Shown here: one piece after another, positions 19,623 to 62,513 of the stretch | Layout of the letters: each line of letters starts with the position of its first letter | Numbering within the stretch: position 1 is the stretch's first letter | Source: a virus | DNA length: 64,000 nt | Direction: 5' to 3' (one strand) | Virus record (IMG/VR): IMGVR_UViG_3300046787_000408 | Location: 62,001 to 126,000 of that record | Translations under genes and position numbers: made by a program | Notes under the pieces: generated by a model | Told to the model about the DNA's origin: nothing | Database searches by the model: none | What the model saw: only the letters and a program-made list of their open reading frames with translations

Positions 19623-20762
19623 ATGAGTAATTTCTTTTGCGCAGCCCCTTGGCGTGGGCTGCATATCAATCCCCGTGGCGATGTCAAAACCTGCTGTGCC
19701 GGCGACCCCAACATGTTGGGCAACCTCAACAGCAACACCATCACAGAGATACTGGATTCAGATCTCTTAAAACAAATACGCAGCGAAATGTCACAAGGAC
19801 GAGCACACAAATACTGCTCCAACTGTGTACAGGCCGAACGCTTTGGTGCAGATTCAGAACGCAAGTGGCACAACGACACCAATCCCAATTTTGACTATGC
19901 CACAGCTGGAGAGCAGTATCACTATCCTGTGATTGTGGATGTGCGTTGGAACACCACTTGCAACCTCAGTTGTAACTATTGCAGTGAATGGGCCAGCTCC
20001 AAATGGTCAGCACTCAAGGGCATTCCGTTCAAGTCAGGCTCAAGGCCCTACTATGAACAAGTGTGTGACTTTCTTGAACAACACAAATCGCACATTCAAG
20101 ACGTTGCACTTGTGGGCGGAGAGCCTTTGCTGCTACCCGAAAACGAACGACTGTTGGATGTTATCCCAGAAGATTGTGCTGTGACCTTGATCACCAACAT
20201 GAATGTGGATCTTGACAAGAACAAGATCTTTAAGAAACTAGCACAACGCAAACGAGTTGGGTGGAGCATGAGCTTTGACAACATTGGCGACAGATTTGAA
20301 TATGTGCGTTATGGCGGCAAGTGGAGCATGCTAACAGAGAACTTGGTCAAAGTCAAAGACTTGTTCAAACAAGGCCAGTGGGGTGGTATTCATGCAGTGT
20401 ACAACATCTACAATGCCACACGTATTGTGGAGTTTCGTGAATGGGCTGCTGAACAAGGTGTGTCAGTGTTGTGGCAGAATCTGTTTCAACCCGATTATCT
20501 GGATCCGTTCTTGCACGGACCAGAAGTTGCTGCCGCTGCCGCAGCTGAAATTGAAAGATTCTATGCTACAGGCCTAGCAACACCAGCAGAGCGTCAATTC
20601 TTTGACAATGCTTTGACCACATACCGTGCAGTTACACAAGAACGATCAGGTATCACCAGCAAGTTTCGAGAACATATTGCCGAGATTGAAACTCAATACC
20701 ACAAAGACCAAGCTGGAAAGTTTGCGCAGTTGTGGCCTGAATTATCACATCTAGTACTATGA
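19623..20762 (+). CDS. Radical SAM protein with N-terminal SPASM/twitch-like cysteine region
   Basis: 379 residues. The radical SAM motif CxxxCxxC is C113, C117, C120 (CNLSCNYC), followed by VGGEPLLL, the GGE motif of SAM binding. Before it, residues 5-70 read FCAAPWRGLHINPRGDVKTCC...YCSNCVQAE, the pattern of an auxiliary-cluster SPASM/twitch region, normally C-terminal. The protein should bind a [4Fe-4S] cluster and make a 5'-deoxyadenosyl radical; the substrate is unknown. It overlaps the SGNH hydrolase gene by 4 nt, suggesting joint action. Confidence 0.85.
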   Translation: MSNFFCAAPWRGLHINPRGDVKTCCAGDPNMLGNLNSNTITEILDSDLLKQIRSEMSQGRAHKYCSNCVQAERFGADSERKWHNDTNPNFDYATAGEQYHYPVIVDVRWNTTCNLSCNYCSEWASSKWSALKGIPFKSGSRPYYEQVCDFLEQHKSHIQDVALVGGEPLLLPENERLLDVIPEDCAVTLITNMNVDLDKNKIFKKLAQRKRVGWSMSFDNIGDRFEYVRYGGKWSMLTENLVKVKDLFKQGQWGGIHAVYNIYNATRIVEFREWAAEQGVSVLWQNLFQPDYLDPFLHGPEVAAAAAAEIERFYATGLATPAERQFFDNALTTYRAVTQERSGITSKFREHIAEIETQYHKDQAGKFAQLWPELSHLVL

Positions 20763-45529: not shown

Positions 45530-45968
45530 TAAACTAAACATTGCCAACGAGATGCGAGTGTTTGACCGCAAGGACAGAACATTCTATGACAATCTAACAC
45601 CCGAAGAGCGCAAGAAGTTCAGCAACTTTCTAATGTTGCGTTGGGGCAGTTCAGTTGAAGGTTCTCGAGACCTACAAGAGTTTTATGTGATCAGTTGCAA
45701 TGAACGTTTCAACAAACACTTTTTTGATCTAGGAAAACATCCTAAATTGCAATGGCTGTTGGCCACAACAGTAAGTCCAGACATGGGAACACCGCGCCAC
45801 CCCTGGATTGCACCCAAGAAAAAAGAGCCCGGCGCAAGCTCGTTCAAGAAACAACTGAGTGAGTTGTTTCCACACTTGAAAAATGATGAAATTGATTTGT
45901 TGGCAGCAATCACTACCAAAAAAGAACTAGATGCATACATTCGTCAGCATGGCAACGACCCCAAGTAA
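45522..45968 (+). CDS. gp62-like clamp loader small subunit (tentative)
   Basis: 148 residues (T4 gp62 is 187). KFSNFLMLRWGSSV, then NKHFFDLGKHPKLQWLLATT and SPDMGTPRHPWI, resemble gp62's KFMVENALSQ... and [21 protein letters not shown]. The C-terminal LKNDEIDLLAAITTKKELDAYIR is a short helical tail. gp62 with gp44 opens the gp45 clamp. gp44 and gp45 are not in this window, and the similarity is from memory, so the call is moderate. Confidence 0.5.
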   Translation: MSDKLNIANEMRVFDRKDRTFYDNLTPEERKKFSNFLMLRWGSSVEGSRDLQEFYVISCNERFNKHFFDLGKHPKLQWLLATTVSPDMGTPRHPWIAPKKKEPGASSFKKQLSELFPHLKNDEIDLLAAITTKKELDAYIRQHGNDPK

Positions 45969-46638
45969 ATTCAGCTGTGACTTTTGCAACAAGACCTTTG
46001 CTAAGGAAACTAGTATAGCAGTTCACATGTGTGAGGCCAAGCGCCGTCATCAAGAGCAGAACGAGCCTGGTGTAAGACTGGGCTTTCAAGCCTACGTGAA
46101 GTTCTATGCAACAGTACAACGATCAGCCAAGACCAAGACATTTGAAGACTTTGCTGGCAGCGCATATTACAAAGCATTTGTAAAGTTTGGACGATACTGT
46201 GTAGATACTCGCACAATCAATCCTGGTCAGTTCATGACATGGTTGTTGAAGCACAACAAAAAGATTGACTACTGGTGTTCAGACAGAGTGTACACAGAAT
46301 ACTTGTTGGACTATCTCAAGGTAGAAGCTGTGGAAGATGCACTGGCACGAGCTATTGAGTACAGTATGACCTGGGCAGAAAACACTCAAGCATCTCCACA
46401 TGATTGTTTGCGTTACGGCAATGTGCATGCTTTGTGCTATGCTATATCGTCTGGCAGACTAAGTCCGTGGACCATATACTGTAGTGATTCAGGACAGAAG
46501 TTTCTCAGCAACTTGGATGCAGCGCAGGTCAGTTTGATCTGGCCCTATATTGATTCAGACGTATGGCTAAAAAAGCTACAGCAGAATCCTGATGATCAGG
46601 CATATGCTAGAACAATTTTAACTCAAGCAGGATGGTAA
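45949..46638 (+). CDS. Conserved hypothetical with N-terminal C2H2-like zinc finger
   Basis: 229 residues from MATTPSKFSCDFCNK at 45949, overlapping the gp62-like gene by 20 nt. FSCDFCNKTFAKETSIAVHMCEAKRRH is a C-x-x-C...H...(C/H)-type finger near residues 9-34. A helical body follows with RYCVDTRTINPGQFMTWLLKHNKKIDYW and TIYCSDSGQKFLSNLD. The finger suggests nucleic-acid contact. Position between gp62-like and helicase genes hints at a replication role. Confidence 0.72.
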   Translation: MATTPSKFSCDFCNKTFAKETSIAVHMCEAKRRHQEQNEPGVRLGFQAYVKFYATVQRSAKTKTFEDFAGSAYYKAFVKFGRYCVDTRTINPGQFMTWLLKHNKKIDYWCSDRVYTEYLLDYLKVEAVEDALARAIEYSMTWAENTQASPHDCLRYGNVHALCYAISSGRLSPWTIYCSDSGQKFLSNLDAAQVSLIWPYIDSDVWLKKLQQNPDDQAYARTILTQAGW

Positions 46639-46987: not shown

Positions 46988-47733
46988 ATGATCATCCATT
47001 GATCTACTGTAACGGAGATAGTTACAGTGATGAGAATTACCACACTTCTCTTGTGGGCAAAACATACGCTCACGTGCTAGGGGAACACTTAAATGGTTTT
47101 GTAATCAACAATGCACTACGAGGTAGTTGTAATCGCCGCATAATTAGAACCTCAGTGCATGATTTAATACAACAACGACAACAAAACCCTGAACAAAGAA
47201 TTATTGCATTAATTGGGTTGTCTTTTGAAATAAGGTCAGAACTTTGGATTGAAAATGCAACCCCCAAGTCAGCACAAGAATCAAATTTTCAAACACATAC
47301 ATTTGCTGACAAAGACAACTGGCGTGACCTGCTGCTAGCAGGAAAAAAGATGTTTGATAAAGAGAACAAATTCCTTGACAAATATAACCAAGGTCGTGCA
47401 TACTACTACAGTCCGTACGCTGAGAGAGCAAATCTTTTGTGCGATTGTGTGATGTTCCAAGCACTAATGAAAGATTTAAACATCGAATTCTTGATGTTTC
47501 AATCGCCACAAGCTGAACAGTTAGAAAATGAATATCTTGTTGATTTTTTTAAATCACAGCTGGACAACAACTGCTTTATTGACTTTGAATCATTTGGGTT
47601 TGTGGATTGGTGTCACGAACAAGGATTTGTTCCGTTAGATTTCCTAGATCGCCCCAACATTGGACACCCTACTGCTCAAGCCCATCGTGCATTTGCAGAA
47701 CAGATTGTTATACCCTACTTTGGTAAATTATGA
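46984..47733 (+). CDS. SGNH hydrolase-like protein (second)
   Basis: 249 residues. LIYCNGDSYSDENYH near residues 6-20 carries the GDS nucleophile block; ALRGSCNRRI near 45 fits block II; RPNIGHPTAQAHRAFAEQIV near 225-240 supplies the catalytic His with a preceding acidic residue. It shares this layout with the SGNH gene at 20759 but little sequence. More AT-rich than its neighbours. Esterase/deacetylase activity on a glycan is likely. Confidence 0.68.
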   Translation: MNDHPLIYCNGDSYSDENYHTSLVGKTYAHVLGEHLNGFVINNALRGSCNRRIIRTSVHDLIQQRQQNPEQRIIALIGLSFEIRSELWIENATPKSAQESNFQTHTFADKDNWRDLLLAGKKMFDKENKFLDKYNQGRAYYYSPYAERANLLCDCVMFQALMKDLNIEFLMFQSPQAEQLENEYLVDFFKSQLDNNCFIDFESFGFVDWCHEQGFVPLDFLDRPNIGHPTAQAHRAFAEQIVIPYFGKL

Positions 47734-48308
47734 GCGCAGATATTGACATTGACATGCCCGACAGGGACGCTGTGCTGAAGTTGATTCAGCATACTCCGGC
47801 ACGGATTGAATCAGGAACATCTGTACGCAAACACAATTCAGGTATCTATGTTACAGATATCCCACAAGATCCTGTGCATGGTGTATCTGCATTAGACTAC
47901 GAAACTGCTGAAGCTCGTGGCTATTTCAAACTGGATTTTCTGAACATGAGCGTGTACAGTTTGATTCAAAGTCCCGAACACTATGATGCTATGCTAGCAG
48001 AAACTCCTCCATGGAGCCGCTTGTGGACAGATGCTCATTGGGTCAGCCAGCTGTCACATGTAGGCAGTTATTATGATTTGTTGAAAGAAATGAAACCAGA
48101 CAGTATACCAAGACTGGCTGCTTTTATATCAATTATTCGTCCAGGAAAAGCACATCTACAAAGAAAACCTTGGGCAGAAGTGTTTGCAAGTGTATGGGAT
48201 GGAGATACCAGTCGGGGCTACACATTCAAAAAGGCACATGCAATTAGCTATGCAGCCTTGGTAGCGCTACACATGAATCTGCTTAATCAATCCGCCGAAC
48301 CAGTGTAA
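47730..48308 (+). CDS. Miniature DnaE/PolC-like protein
   Basis: 192 residues, yet it lines up with scattered conserved blocks of bacterial DNA polymerase III alpha (over 1000 aa): ADIDIDMPDR (residues 3-12; alpha has PDIDIDFxxxR with two catalytic Asp), HNSGIYVTDIP (35-45; alpha's HAGGVVIS), GYFKLDFLNMSVYSLI (64-79; alpha's GLVKFDFLGLxTLTVI with the third Asp), RLAAFISIIRPG, and YTFKKAHAISYAALVA (alpha's YGFNKSHAAAYxLVA). D6, D8 and D69 could form the palm triad, but most of the polymerase is absent. Function unknown. Confidence 0.65.
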   Translation: MSADIDIDMPDRDAVLKLIQHTPARIESGTSVRKHNSGIYVTDIPQDPVHGVSALDYETAEARGYFKLDFLNMSVYSLIQSPEHYDAMLAETPPWSRLWTDAHWVSQLSHVGSYYDLLKEMKPDSIPRLAAFISIIRPGKAHLQRKPWAEVFASVWDGDTSRGYTFKKAHAISYAALVALHMNLLNQSAEPV

Positions 48309-48660
48309 TTGATTTTCTCTTGCTTTTTTTGCGAGCAATGTCCAGTAAGCTGCAAGCAGGTCCGTGCAGTATTTCTAGGTCTTTGTTTGAAAATGTACGC
48401 AAGGTGTGTCTGAATCGATCCCATTCTCCGCGCAAGAAAATGTTAATGGGTATGCTGCGATTGCTCTCCCACCACCAGGTATTTGCTAGTTCTAGGAATA
48501 CCAGTTTGTCTTGTAAGTCAGTAACATGACCAAAGTCGTAGATGGTAGTAACAGTGTCGTCTCTGTTTTGAACTATGCCCACGTATTCCACGTTTGCGTA
48601 CAAGCAAAGCGTGATAAAGGGGTATTTTTCTGCTAACTTAGTAAAGATGTCGTTGCCCAT
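48283..48660 (-). CDS. Conserved hypothetical, 125 aa
   Basis: Minus-strand gene whose last 26 nt overlap the DnaE-like gene. DIFTKLAEKYPFITLCLYANVEYVGIVQNRDDT, TTIYDFGHV, and a basic end (LLDIARKKSKRKSITLVRRID). From memory similar proteins occur in T4-like aquatic phages without a known role. The ATG at 48660 abuts the divergent late promoter of the next gene. Confidence 0.7.
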   Translation of the reverse strand: MGNDIFTKLAEKYPFITLCLYANVEYVGIVQNRDDTVTTIYDFGHVTDLQDKLVFLELANTWWWESNRSIPINIFLRGEWDRFRHTLRTFSNKDLEILHGPACSLLDIARKKSKRKSITLVRRID

Positions 48661-49775: not shown

Positions 49776-50744
49776 ATGTTGGACATTCTCACTTATCTGC
49801 CTGCCAAGCGTAAATCAAGCCCTAGTGGCTGGTTGAGCTTTAATGCAGTATGTTGTAGTCACAATGGTGCTAGCCTAGATCGTCGCAGTCGCGGCGGCAT
49901 CAAACTGTCCGATCAAGGATGGAGTTATCATTGTTTCAACTGCGGGTATACTGCTAGCTTTATTCTTGGCCGCTCGGTAAGCTACAAAGCCCGTAGACTC
50001 TTGAGCTGGCTGGGTGTACCTGATCGTGATATTGAACTGATCAACCTTGACAGTCTAAGACATCGCAACATCAATGGGTTAATTGAGGATCGGCAACGCA
50101 CATTTAACGTACTGCAAGGTATTGAGTTTGAAGAACGTGAATTGCCTGCTGGCGCAGAGTTTGTGCAACCTGGCACCACTTACTGGAGCTACCTATCCGC
50201 ACGCCATGCCCCGACCAATTTTCCGTTCATGATTGATCCCATGAGCAAGCGCAAAGGTATCATTATACCTTTCACACACAACAATCGTGTGGTAGGATGG
50301 ACCAAGCGTTTCCTGGATGCACATAACCCCAGATACTTTAGCGATAGTCAGCCAGGCTATGTGTTTGGTACTGATTTACAACATCCAGACTGGCAGCATG
50401 TGATTGTAACTGAAGGCATCTTTGATGCACTCAGCATTGGTGGTCTAGGTCTAATGCACAACGACATCAATGATGCTCAGGCTAGACTGATACGCAGTTT
50501 GGAGCGTCAAATCACTGTGGTACCTGATCAAGACAGTGCAGGCTTGGCTCTGATTGATCGTGCTGTGGAATTGGGATGGGCAGTGAGCATACCCAACTGG
50601 GATGATGGCGTCAAGGACGTTAATGATGCGGTGAAGAAATACGGGCGTTTGGGTACCTTGCTAACTATTATGCAGGCACGAGAAACCAGCAGAATCAAAA
50701 TTGAACTAAGGAAAAAAGCACTTGTTAAAAGAATACAACACTGA
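49776..50744 (+). CDS. 61: DNA primase gp61
   Basis: 322 residues (T4 gp61 342). Zinc-binding domain: AVCCSHNGAS near residue 25-32 and YHCFNCGYTASF near 52-63. TOPRIM part: HVIVTEGIFDALSI near 207-220 (Glu of motif 1) and TVVPDQDSAGLALI near 245-258 (D-x-D). It makes pentaribonucleotide-type primers with gp41. Overlaps the helicase by 23 nt. Confidence 0.92.
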   Translation: MLDILTYLPAKRKSSPSGWLSFNAVCCSHNGASLDRRSRGGIKLSDQGWSYHCFNCGYTASFILGRSVSYKARRLLSWLGVPDRDIELINLDSLRHRNINGLIEDRQRTFNVLQGIEFEERELPAGAEFVQPGTTYWSYLSARHAPTNFPFMIDPMSKRKGIIIPFTHNNRVVGWTKRFLDAHNPRYFSDSQPGYVFGTDLQHPDWQHVIVTEGIFDALSIGGLGLMHNDINDAQARLIRSLERQITVVPDQDSAGLALIDRAVELGWAVSIPNWDDGVKDVNDAVKKYGRLGTLLTIMQARETSRIKIELRKKALVKRIQH

Positions 50745-52158
50745 AGTACAGCGATTGTTTTTGGAAATGATGTTAGAAGACGCCAGCTCGTATGTGCGTG
50801 TGCAAAACATTTACAATCCAGAAAACTTTGATCGTAGTCTACGCAAAGCCGCAGAGTTTATTAAAGAACACTCAGACAAGTACAAGACTCTGCCAGATCG
50901 CACACAGATATCTGCGGCATGTGGTGTTACATTGCAAGCAGTACCTGATCTAAACGAAGGGCACAATGAATGGTTCATGTCTGAGTTTGAAAGCTTTACC
51001 AAGCGTCAAGAACTTGAACGTGCTATTCTCAAAGCAGCCGACTTGCTGGAAAAGGGTGATTTTGATCCTGTGGAAAAACTGATCAAGGATGCAGTGCAGA
51101 TCAGCTTGACCAAGGACATGGGTACAGACTATTTTGCTGACCCTGCAGGCCGTATCAACAAGTACTTCAATTCAGGCGGACAAGTTAGCACAGGCTGGCC
51201 ACAAATGGATCGACTGCTGTATGGCGGATTCAGTCGTGGTGAACTCAACATCTTTGCAGGTGGATCAGGTTCAGGCAAGTCACTTGTGATGATGAACATT
51301 GCGCTGAACTGGTTGCAACAAGGTCTAAGTGGTGTTTACATCAGTCTTGAATTGAGTGAAGAACTGACATCGTTGCGTACTGACGCTATGTTGACCAGTA
51401 TGAGTACCAAGGACATTCGCAAGGACATTGATTCAGCAGAGCTCAAGGTCAAGATGACAGGGCGCACAGCAGGCAAATACCGTGTTAAAGCATTGCCAGC
51501 ACAAAGCAACATCAATGATATTCGCAGTTACATCAAAGAAGTGCAGATACAAACAGGTATCCGCGTGGACTTTATCATGGTAGACTACTTGGACTTGCTG
51601 ATGCCAGTAAGCGCCAAGGTCAGTCCCAACGACTTGTTTGTGAAAGACAAGTATGTGTCAGAAGAATTACGAAACTTGGCCAAAGAGCTGGGTGTGTTGC
51701 TGGTAACAGCATCACAGTTGAATCGATCAGCGGTGGAAGAAATTGAATTTGATCACTCACACATTAGTGGTGGTATTTCAAAGATCAACACAGCTGATAA
51801 CGTGTTTGGTATCTTTACTAGTCGTGCTATGAAAGAGCGCGGCAAGTATCAAATACAGTGTATGAAATCTCGAAGCTCGACCGGCGTTGGTCAAAAAATT
51901 GATTTGGAGTATAACATTGACACTATGCGTATTACTGATGAAGGCGGGGACGAAGGCGGATACAACAAACCGCAAAGTGCTATCATGGAATCAATCAAGG
52001 CCAAAAGCCAAGTCAAGGCTGCTGATGCCGAAACAAACAGCAGTGCTCCATGGGAACGTGCAACAGGAACCCCTGCATGGGAGCAAGGACCCAAAGTATC
52101 AGCAGACGTTCAAAGTTCTAAACTAAAACAAATGCTGGGCAAGATCAAAGCAGGGTAA
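50722..52158 (+). CDS. 41: Replicative helicase gp41 (DnaB family)
   Basis: 478 residues (T4 gp41 475). TTG start; the sequence from the first codon (LKEYNTEVQRLFLEMMLEDASSY) looks like the conserved N-terminus of aquatic T4-like gp41, and an aaggaa site precedes it. Walker A FAGGSGSGKSLVMM near 178-191, Walker B FIMVDYLDLLMP near 275-286, and the arginine-finger region VTASQLNRSAVE near 330. The C-terminal 60 residues are Ala/Lys rich. It unwinds DNA 5' to 3' on the lagging strand. Confidence 0.94.
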   Translation: MLKEYNTEVQRLFLEMMLEDASSYVRVQNIYNPENFDRSLRKAAEFIKEHSDKYKTLPDRTQISAACGVTLQAVPDLNEGHNEWFMSEFESFTKRQELERAILKAADLLEKGDFDPVEKLIKDAVQISLTKDMGTDYFADPAGRINKYFNSGGQVSTGWPQMDRLLYGGFSRGELNIFAGGSGSGKSLVMMNIALNWLQQGLSGVYISLELSEELTSLRTDAMLTSMSTKDIRKDIDSAELKVKMTGRTAGKYRVKALPAQSNINDIRSYIKEVQIQTGIRVDFIMVDYLDLLMPVSAKVSPNDLFVKDKYVSEELRNLAKELGVLLVTASQLNRSAVEEIEFDHSHISGGISKINTADNVFGIFTSRAMKERGKYQIQCMKSRSSTGVGQKIDLEYNIDTMRITDEGGDEGGYNKPQSAIMESIKAKSQVKAADAETNSSAPWERATGTPAWEQGPKVSADVQSSKLKQMLGKIKAG

Positions 52159-52159
52159 C

Positions 52160-53113
52160 ATGATTACTTGCGTAGATGCGTTTAAAAATCTAAACGTTGT
52201 TATACAGCAAGGTGGTACTAGAATATCGCCTTGTTGTATATCGCCTACTGTGCCGGTACAGCAGTTGGATTTTAACCACAGCTACCTAACTTCTATTAGA
52301 GAAAGTTTTTCTCAAGGAACATGGCCTTCTAGCTGTGTTAATTGCAAAACTAACGAGCAAGCAGGATATACTAGTAGACGGATAGGCAGTAACCAATGGT
52401 ATACTGATCATCAAATAAACAACCACTCAGTTGAATTAACTAGGATAGACTATTGGACTGGTGACACCTGCAACCTTGCTTGTGTAATATGTGGTCCTGA
52501 AAACAGCAGTATGTGGCAACAGGAATTGGGGATTCAAAAATCATCAGTTGCCAACACACTATGGAAGCAACTGAATCTAACAGCATTAAAATCTGTACAC
52601 TTCAACGGAGGAGAACCGTTGTTGAGTAAAGAGCATGTGCGATTTTTACATGCAATTCCAAATAAATCACAAGTATATTTAAATTACAATACCAACGGAA
52701 CTATTTTACCTAATCAAGAGCTACAACAATTGTGGGCTGAATTCAAGTTAGTACAATTGGATTTTAGTATTGATGATGTAGGCAAAAGATTTGAATACCA
52801 GCGATATCCTGCCCAATGGGATACAATTGAAAACAATTTACAATGGTACATTGAATCTGCTCCGCACAATTGTATGTTCGCAGTCAACACCACAGTGGGG
52901 ATATTGAATCAAAATAACTTAGCTACTCTTGATCAGTGGTTGTTGGAGCATTTTACCCAATCAAGATTTGGTGATCCAATTGAGCATCGTCGACAGAATG
53001 CATTGGGTAAATTTTCAATAACATCTGATATTATACAGGTACGACTGCACCTTGACACACTAGATCAAAGACGCAAAACCAATTGGCGTCTTGTGTTCCC
53101 AGAGTTAGCGTGA
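52160..53113 (+). CDS. Radical SAM protein with N-terminal SPASM/twitch-like region (second)
   Basis: 317 residues. CxxxCxxC is C104, C108, C111 (CNLACVIC), followed by HFNGGEPLLS. N-terminal cysteines are C4, C25, C26, C59 and C62 (SPCCIS...SSCVNC), the same design as the gene at 19623. The core is shorter than in that gene. It starts 1 nt after gp41 but is much more AT-rich, so it looks inserted. Substrate unknown. Confidence 0.82.
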   Translation: MITCVDAFKNLNVVIQQGGTRISPCCISPTVPVQQLDFNHSYLTSIRESFSQGTWPSSCVNCKTNEQAGYTSRRIGSNQWYTDHQINNHSVELTRIDYWTGDTCNLACVICGPENSSMWQQELGIQKSSVANTLWKQLNLTALKSVHFNGGEPLLSKEHVRFLHAIPNKSQVYLNYNTNGTILPNQELQQLWAEFKLVQLDFSIDDVGKRFEYQRYPAQWDTIENNLQWYIESAPHNCMFAVNTTVGILNQNNLATLDQWLLEHFTQSRFGDPIEHRRQNALGKFSITSDIIQVRLHLDTLDQRRKTNWRLVFPELA

Positions 53114-53785: not shown

Positions 53786-54982
53786 ATGGAAAAAGGTAAA
53801 AATTTGTATTGTGCCTGGGCTGACACAGGCCTAGCACTGCATAATTCAGGACGATGCTTGCTGTGTTGTCATAGCCAAACTTATTTGCAGGACACAAATG
53901 GCCAGGAAATATACCTGGACACAGGCTCTATTGAACAGGCCTGGAACAGTCCCACTAGAAAACAAATTCAAGCAGATCTTGAAGCTGGTATTCAGCATCC
54001 CAATTGCAGCGCATGTTGGAACGAAGAAAGTGCAGGGCGTGCAAGTCGCCGCACAGAAGCCAATCGACAGTTTGCTGATATCACTGTCAACCCTGACCGT
54101 CCGCAACTGGTAGACCTTAAACCTGGCAATACCTGCAACTTGGCATGCAGAACCTGTTGGCCTGAAGTCAGCAGCAAATGGTATCGAGACTATTGGGAAG
54201 TTGAAGCTCAGAAATGGGAACCAGACTACCGCAAGTATCTTGATGGGTGGAAACGTATCCGCACCAGTTATGACCGCGATAACGTAAAGCTGTGGTCTGA
54301 CCTAGAATCGTGGTTTACAGACGTAGAGTACTATGACATCTACGGGGCAGAGCCAATGCTGTTGGACAATGTGTTTGTGATCTTACAACAAAGTGTGGCA
54401 TCAGGTAGAGCAGCACATCAAGGCATACACATCAACACCAACTGTACTATATGGAATCAAAGCTACATTGATATTCTTGCACAATTCAAGAACGTGGTTA
54501 TTGACGTTAGCATTGATGGGATTGGCGCACAATATGACTATATTCGTTATGGCGAAACTTGGAGCACTGTGGAACTGAATCTTGCTAGGTATCAGAATCT
54601 AGTTCGTAACCACAGCAACATTCGCATGCATGTTTGTGTCACTGTGTGTATTCTAAATGTATTGCAAGTGATGAACCTGCAGGAATATTTTTGTGCCCGT
54701 GGTGTTCCTGTATTTTTTAACATGGTACATCATCCACAACACTTGAATGTGAGATCCTTGCCTGACACTATCAAACAACAGGTACGAGCCAAGTTTGCAC
54801 CTGCTGAACCCAATTGGCAAATAACCAGTATACTGGATTTCATGGACATGCCCCTGGACAATCAACCTCAACTGTGGCTCAAGTTCTTGGAGTCAACAAA
54901 AAAGCTAGACCTGTTACGAGAACAAGATCTAGCTGAAACGTTTCCTGAATTGGCAGAATTGATTAGCCGGCTACAGCCTTGA
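53786..54982 (+). CDS. Radical SAM protein with N-terminal SPASM/twitch-like region (third)
   Basis: 398 residues. CxxxCxxC is C117, C121, C124 (CNLACRTC). The expected GGEP motif is altered to IYGAEPML near 192. N-terminal cysteines C9, C24, C27, C28, C74 and C77 repeat the design of the genes at 19623 and 52160. The insertion between motif and GxE is longer (RDYWEVEAQKWEPDYRKYL). Its 3' end overlaps the convergent structural gene by 20 nt. Confidence 0.83.
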   Translation: MEKGKNLYCAWADTGLALHNSGRCLLCCHSQTYLQDTNGQEIYLDTGSIEQAWNSPTRKQIQADLEAGIQHPNCSACWNEESAGRASRRTEANRQFADITVNPDRPQLVDLKPGNTCNLACRTCWPEVSSKWYRDYWEVEAQKWEPDYRKYLDGWKRIRTSYDRDNVKLWSDLESWFTDVEYYDIYGAEPMLLDNVFVILQQSVASGRAAHQGIHINTNCTIWNQSYIDILAQFKNVVIDVSIDGIGAQYDYIRYGETWSTVELNLARYQNLVRNHSNIRMHVCVTVCILNVLQVMNLQEYFCARGVPVFFNMVHHPQHLNVRSLPDTIKQQVRAKFAPAEPNWQITSILDFMDMPLDNQPQLWLKFLESTKKLDLLREQDLAETFPELAELISRLQP

Positions 54983-61837: not shown

Positions 61838-62131
61838 ATGATCAAAATTATCACAGCAGTAGCACTTTTGTTTGCAACCAATGCACATGCCTGGGGCGAT
61901 CGTGAGCAAGGCGCTTTGGCAGGTATTGTGGGCACATTGATTTGGCAAAAGCTAGAACATCAAAATCACCCACCAAGGCCTCAAGTGATTCATCAGCCGG
62001 TGTATACACAGCCCACAGTGATTTATCAGTATCCACAGCCCATGCCCGAGCGTCAGTGCTATGTGGTACGTGAAACTCGCAACTACAACGGTTCCTACAC
62101 CAGAGAGATTCACTGTCATGGCCTACAGTGA
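61838..62131 (+). CDS. Small exported protein
   Basis: 97 residues with a clear signal peptide (MIKIITAVALLFATNAHA, cut after AHA). The mature part has a Gly/Ala helix (EQGALAGIVGTLIWQ), a His/Pro/Tyr-rich spacer and two Cys (RQCYVVRE, HCHG) that could pair in the periplasm. It has an early promoter, so an envelope role during infection, such as superinfection exclusion, is possible. Overlaps the IscU start by 14 nt. Confidence 0.75.
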   Translation: MIKIITAVALLFATNAHAWGDREQGALAGIVGTLIWQKLEHQNHPPRPQVIHQPVYTQPTVIYQYPQPMPERQCYVVRETRNYNGSYTREIHCHGLQ

Positions 62132-62513
62132 CAAAGTAGTAGATCACTACGAAAACCCCCGCAACGTTGGTTCGTTTGACAAAAACGACTTGGACGTGGG
62201 CACTGGCATGGTAGGTGCACCTGCATGCGGTGATGTAATGAAACTGCAAATTCGAGTTCAAGATGGAATTATTACAGATGCAAGATTCAAAACCTATGGT
62301 TGCGGTAGTGCAATCGCAAGTTCCTCTCTTGTTACCGAGTGGGTTAAAGGCAAGACGTTGGACCAGGCCGCAGCTCTTAAAAATTCAGAGATTGCTGAAG
62401 AACTTGCACTGCCCCCAGTCAAAATCCATTGTAGCATCCTTGCTGAAGACGCCATCAAAGCCGCAGTAGACGACTATCGTAAACGTCATGAAAATACAAC
62501 ACAGTCACAGTGA
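62118..62513 (+). CDS. iscU: IscU iron-sulphur cluster assembly scaffold
   Basis: 131 residues, start at MAYSDKVVDHYENPRNVGS, as in bacterial IscU. All cluster ligands are present: C37 and D39 (GAPACGDVM), C62 (YGCGSAIASSS) and H104-C105 (LPPVKIHCSILAEDA); the LPPVK motif for the HscA chaperone is intact. It is remarkably like proteobacterial IscU, from memory, suggesting recent transfer. It builds [2Fe-2S]/[4Fe-4S] clusters with host IscS and chaperones, and probably supports the phage's radical SAM enzymes. Confidence 0.93.
   Translation: MAYSDKVVDHYENPRNVGSFDKNDLDVGTGMVGAPACGDVMKLQIRVQDGIITDARFKTYGCGSAIASSSLVTEWVKGKTLDQAAALKNSEIAEELALPPVKIHCSILAEDAIKAAVDDYRKRHENTTQSQ

Follow-up and report, generated by a model that had tools for sequence, protein, structure and literature searches.

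The probable C-terminal half of a split minimal DNA polymerase III alpha in an uncultured jumbo phage

The DNA analysed here, referred to below as the window, is a stretch of 64,000 nucleotides (positions 62,001 to 126,000) of the IMG/VR virus record IMGVR_UViG_3300046787_000408. At window positions 47730-48308 (+), a gene with an ATG start encodes a protein of 192 amino acid residues; the reading frame and the sequence agree with the initial annotation, in which the product was described as a miniature DnaE-like protein. We call it the C-half, as we assign it below to a minimal DNA polymerase III (Pol III) alpha split in two, of which it would form the C-terminal part. Downstream are genes for a gp61-like DNA primase (49776-50744 (+); phrog_47, E = 8e-26) and a gp41-like, DnaB-like replicative helicase (50722-52158 (+); phrog_19, E = 3e-74), matches that bear out the earlier placing of the protein next to primase and helicase. 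Among related loci with room for them, the primase gene was found downstream of the C-half in 157 of 161 and the helicase gene in 49 of 51. A 125-aa gene of phrog_11637, to which no function is assigned (48283-48660 (-)), overlaps the C-half gene with its 3' end. It lies on the minus strand although the surrounding genes are almost all on the plus strand, and this convergent arrangement is kept in 193 of 228 related loci. The upstream neighbour, phrog_11058 (45931-46638 (+)), is present in 198 of 211 loci, and its protein has a weak single C2H2-type zinc finger at the N-terminus.

Profile searches were required to detect the relationships of the C-half. A single-sequence phmmer search against the PDB gave no match, and Pfam alone gave only a weak one under the cut-off (PF17657, E = 0.065). 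The protein matched phrog_11778, annotated as 'DNA polymerase' (E = 1e-52), and phrog_405, the family of full-length phage DnaE proteins (E = 4e-6). The C-half is not rare, since its relatives are encoded in 63 phage records and in 542 IMG/VR stretches. Their size is constant, nearly all of them having 184-221 residues from stop to stop (254 loci). The identity of the C-half to members from cultured phages is 28-45%, and its genome belongs to an uncultured freshwater-type lineage with numerous near metagenomic relatives. Relatives of the C-half are annotated as hypothetical proteins or even as 'putative membrane protein'.

To place the C-half on Pol III alpha, a profile made from 208 distinct C-half sequences was aligned with the profile of six full-length DnaE proteins (E. 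coli, Mx1, PB1, RHph_N1_15, LinStu, and Yasdnil); E. coli alpha numbers in this alignment are the template numbers minus 6. Three collinear blocks were obtained, in which C-half residues 2-14, 31-139 (E = 5e-7), and 150-177 correspond to E. coli alpha 399-411, 507-641, and 739-767, respectively. All five conserved blocks listed in the initial annotation are present in DnaE order, and given these collinear blocks and the phrog_11778 match this is not a chance resemblance. The homology to DnaE proposed at that time is thus supported by both the profile alignment and the phrog_405 match. Judged by the alignment, the C-half is homologous to the DnaE palm and to part of the DnaE fingers.

The catalytic residues can be read from this register. 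D401, D403, and D555 are absolutely conserved in C-family polymerases, and an additional Asp, D405, is common to all DnaE groups and replaced by Asn in PolC (PMC3919608). In the C-half, the codons of D4-I-D6-I-D8 (47739-47753 (+)) align with the metal ligands D401 (D4) and D403 (D6) and with D405 (D8), and those of K67-L-D69 (47928-47936 (+)) with K553 and the third metal ligand, D555. As the D405 equivalent is present, the C-half is of DnaE type. The triad had earlier been given as D6, D8, and D69; the third member stands, whereas the pair is off by one Asp. H170 (codon 48237-48239 (+)) aligns with H760, the presumed steric gate of E. coli alpha (PMC8485763). The full Asp set, D4, D6, D69, and D8, is kept in 208 of 208 sequences. 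The distance between the second and the third Asp, put at about 61 instead of about 150 in the initial annotation, is indeed short: 63 residues in the C-half and 59-65 across the family, versus 152 in E. coli. It is short because the thumb (alpha about 412-506) is absent; the fingers segment alpha 642-738 is also absent. From the register with alpha, the three Asp residues would be expected to meet in space.

The remaining part of the active site is encoded elsewhere in the genome. The 299,983-base jumbo-phage record contains a single match to PF07733, which covers the N-terminal part of the catalytic domain of Pol III alpha (G000:C1:207477-207686). The match is in a gene for a protein of 172 residues (G000:C1:207174-207692 (+)) that lies outside the window, about 97 kb from the C-half gene. 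This protein, the N-half, matches phrog_11127 (E = 1e-35) and terminates in WGVGRGSSVASYVLYKLGVHRIDSLYYELDPAEFLR. In a search against solved structures, the family profile of the N-half matched E. coli alpha 320-393 (E = 6.6e-5), and N-half residues 100-172 were aligned with alpha 321-393 (E = 3e-9); the corresponding single-sequence phmmer search against the PDB yielded only repeat-protein noise (PPR proteins). The N-half C-terminus is located 29-31 residues past the GRGS motif in 98 of 98 distinct sequences. In E. coli numbering, the N-half runs up to 393 and the C-half begins at 399; therefore, neither half alone holds a complete active site. On the alignment, the split separates the GRGS (GS) helix from the DxD strand and is located in the loop that connects them. 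Residues 1-72 of the N-half were unmatched among the structure chains aligned; this region (L084 1198-1413) might stand in for a part of alpha that was lost, or it might contact a partner in the replisome. In the genome of the window and in others, the N-half gene precedes a GroES-like gene and the gene for the clamp loader large subunit. The genes of both halves sit in replication clusters.

Predicted structures of the two proteins were examined separately. AlphaFold models were built from the family alignments, with good confidence for both halves, and compared with known structures by VIA-align. The C-half model (pLDDT 90.6, pTM 0.79) matched above noise solely Pol III alpha and PolC structures, with Z of 6.2-9.4 over 180-190 residues in the E. 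coli range 399-781; the best unrelated structure had Z of 3.2. Matches of the C-half model at Z of 3.2 or less (NusA, FosB, and others) were taken as noise. The N-half model, made for the close relative L089 (pLDDT 89.2, pTM 0.70), likewise matched above noise only Pol III alpha and PolC, with Z of 7.6-11.8 over 92-99 residues in the E. coli range 278-393, the next structure being at Z of 2.0. The ranges of E. coli alpha matched by the two halves, 278-393 and 399-781, are complementary.

The combination found here corresponds to a described system. Iyer et al. (2021, PMC7824862) reported that group 2.2 jumbo phages encode, in addition to a family B polymerase, a phage-specific Pol III alpha of minimal size, which is divided between two proteins with genes far apart, one N-terminal for NTP binding and one C-terminal for Mg and template binding; the halves were described from sequence and proposed to be likely to reconstitute the enzyme. 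The N-half had been taken earlier for a truncated Pol III alpha, as CBB_328 (PMC5259590) and gp316 of Atu_ph07 (PMC6102473). We found no experimental follow-up of the split Pol III alpha in the literature searched. The same two proteins (phrog_11127 for the N-half and phrog_11778 for the C-half, as in Atu_ph07, CBB, RaK2, and PA5oct-like phages) occur in the genome of the window, with the same cut between the NTP-binding and Mg-binding parts, with distant genes, and with a family B polymerase (PF00136) in the same record. Besides the palm and fingers homology of the C-half and the separate, distant N-half gene, no other alpha domains were found in the record, which is possibly incomplete; PHP (PF02811) and HhH (PF14579) were both sought in it. 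Nothing essential differs from the system of Iyer et al., the lineage here being uncultured, and the gene in the window belongs to a kind already described. What our analysis adds is the exact position of the cut, the residue-level register including the steric gate, the invariance across a large sample, the selection, the co-occurrence counts, and the complementary structural matches.

The relation to bacterial replicases is one of homology. DnaE-type alpha subunits (E. coli DnaE, Taq alpha, and M. tuberculosis DnaE1) share with the phage proteins the Asp triad, D405, K553, H760, GRGS, the palm fold, and the order of the blocks. In place of the one-chain layout of an ordinary DnaE (PHP, palm, thumb, fingers, HhH, and clamp motif), the phage version consists of two chains and lacks PHP, thumb, part of the fingers, HhH, OB, and the C-terminal domain. 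The C-half is accordingly a DnaE homologue rather than an ordinary member of DnaE. The idea of a stand-alone mini-protein is not upheld, as the GRGS half is a separate gene 97 kb away that is present together with the C-half in 59 phage records among those listed (lists compared by hand).

Of the 60 C-half records listed, only one, an unannotated record of 109 kb, does not have the N-half. The sole N-half-only record among those listed is that of Myxococcus phage Mx1, which matches the N-half and encodes a full-length DnaE. All nine metagenomic phage contigs longer than 290 kb that we checked have both halves and a family B polymerase; one contig of 251 kb and one of 262 kb have one half only and may be fragments. 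A related 337-kb contig has the split halves and, in addition, an ORF of 568 residues with a strong match to the whole of PF07733 (G015:C1:94733-95365 (-), E = 3e-39); this ORF is perhaps part of a conventional DnaE. No fusion of the halves was found in 254 C-half and 111 N-half loci, the sole ORF holding both being the full-length DnaE reference from phage LinStu. In MIJ3, the family B polymerase has been reported to undergo protein splicing (PMC6892783). For the two halves, a hidden intein was considered but is not supported, as there is no fusion ORF in these loci and no extension of either half at the cut.

D4, D6, D8, H35, G38, P45, K67, D69, L71, W95, P123, R137, P138, K140, and H170 are invariant in the 208 distinct C-halves, and R103, E107, G138, G140, R141, G142, S143, L150, and F170 in 98 distinct N-halves. 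Down to sequences of 28% identity, no substitution occurs in the metal ligands or in GRGS, and there is little or no variation in the RPG and KKxH finger blocks, which are specific to Pol III alpha. The dN/dS ratio is about 0.02-0.14 for both halves; dN is thus far below dS, which indicates purifying selection. The distance matrices of the two halves are correlated (Mantel r = 0.875, 0 of 10,000 permutations), which shows co-inheritance and is not evidence of binding.

We consider it very probable that the C-half belongs to a split Pol III alpha and functions in a complex with the N-half. Most likely, the two polypeptides would associate non-covalently to restore a single nucleotidyltransferase active site of the Pol beta type, in which R141-G142-S143 of the N-half (R362, G363, and S364 of the GRGS loop) would hold the nucleotide triphosphate, D4, D6, and D69 of the C-half would bind the metals, and H170, as the steric gate, would serve for the sugar; the C-half would also bring part of the fingers. 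The heterodimer would have about 364 residues, without PHP, thumb, part of the fingers, HhH, OB, and the C-terminal parts. Because the genes are far apart, coordinated expression of the halves is only assumed. Of the initial annotation, the DnaE homology, the retained catalytic Asp residues, and the replisome gene context are borne out, and the reduced nucleotidyltransferase suggested there fits this prediction.

Templated DNA synthesis by the pair is uncertain because it has no thumb and lacks much of the fingers, and we give this activity roughly an even chance. The same loss, together with the fact that GS plus DxD...D is the general plan of the Pol beta superfamily, leaves some room for a complex with an intact site but another reaction, such as terminal transfer, nucleotide addition to another substrate, or RNA primer extension. 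We regard such a reaction as possible but rather doubtful, as the His of the steric gate is retained along with the RPG and KKxH blocks and both genes sit in replication clusters. Small size alone is no bar to polymerase activity, because enzymes of family X, a different family in the Pol beta superfamily, carry the GS plus DxD...D plan in a very small single chain. A non-catalytic part in the phage replisome, as scaffold or regulatory subunits, would suit a phage that owns a family B replicase and the replisome gene context; a scaffold, however, would not need metal ligands and GRGS invariant down to 28% identity, and this role is improbable.

Two further readings had been raised with the initial annotation, and neither survived. 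In alpha, PHP binds the host epsilon, and the C-terminal parts bind the clamp and tau. A decoy for the host clamp, tau, or other replisome proteins has only the resemblance to host alpha in its favour; exactly the host-binding parts (PHP, clamp motif, and C-terminal domain) are missing from both proteins, no PHP or HhH domain is found in the record, and conservation falls on catalytic residues, so that we hold a decoy to be extremely unlikely. The absence of large parts of alpha could also suggest a decaying relic of a full-length DnaE, but the low dN/dS, the constant size in 254 loci, and the catalytic residues, including metal ligands invariant in 208 homologues, make decay just as hard to credit.

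Under the preferred reading of a split Pol III alpha, the pair, if active, would be a low-processivity helper beside the T4-like family B polymerase of the phage and not the replicase, because the thumb, PHP, HhH, OB, and clamp-binding parts are lost. Its role would perhaps be in primer handling, gap filling, or repair. There is about as much to be said for as against a working thumbless C-family polymerase, its site assembled in trans from two unspliced proteins, next to a family B replicase in one T4-like replisome. If this is true, two kinds of polymerase would divide the labour in one phage. An active heterodimer would represent the catalytic core of a C-family polymerase in extremely reduced form, a minimal Pol III occurring in nature, and would offer a simple two-subunit system for testing the contribution of thumb, PHP, and clamp binding to bacterial replicases. 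It would also bear on the question of what makes a phage that owns a family B replicase retain, under strong selection, a second active site of bacterial type. For annotation, it matters that the puzzling 'mini-polymerase' is resolved as half of an enzyme.

Other genes in the window were noted by eye. An IscU/NifU-like iron-sulphur scaffold protein, here in a phage, appears to be encoded at 62061-62513 (+), and three radical SAM/SPASM-like enzymes at 19623-20762, 52160-53113, and 53786-54982 (all +).
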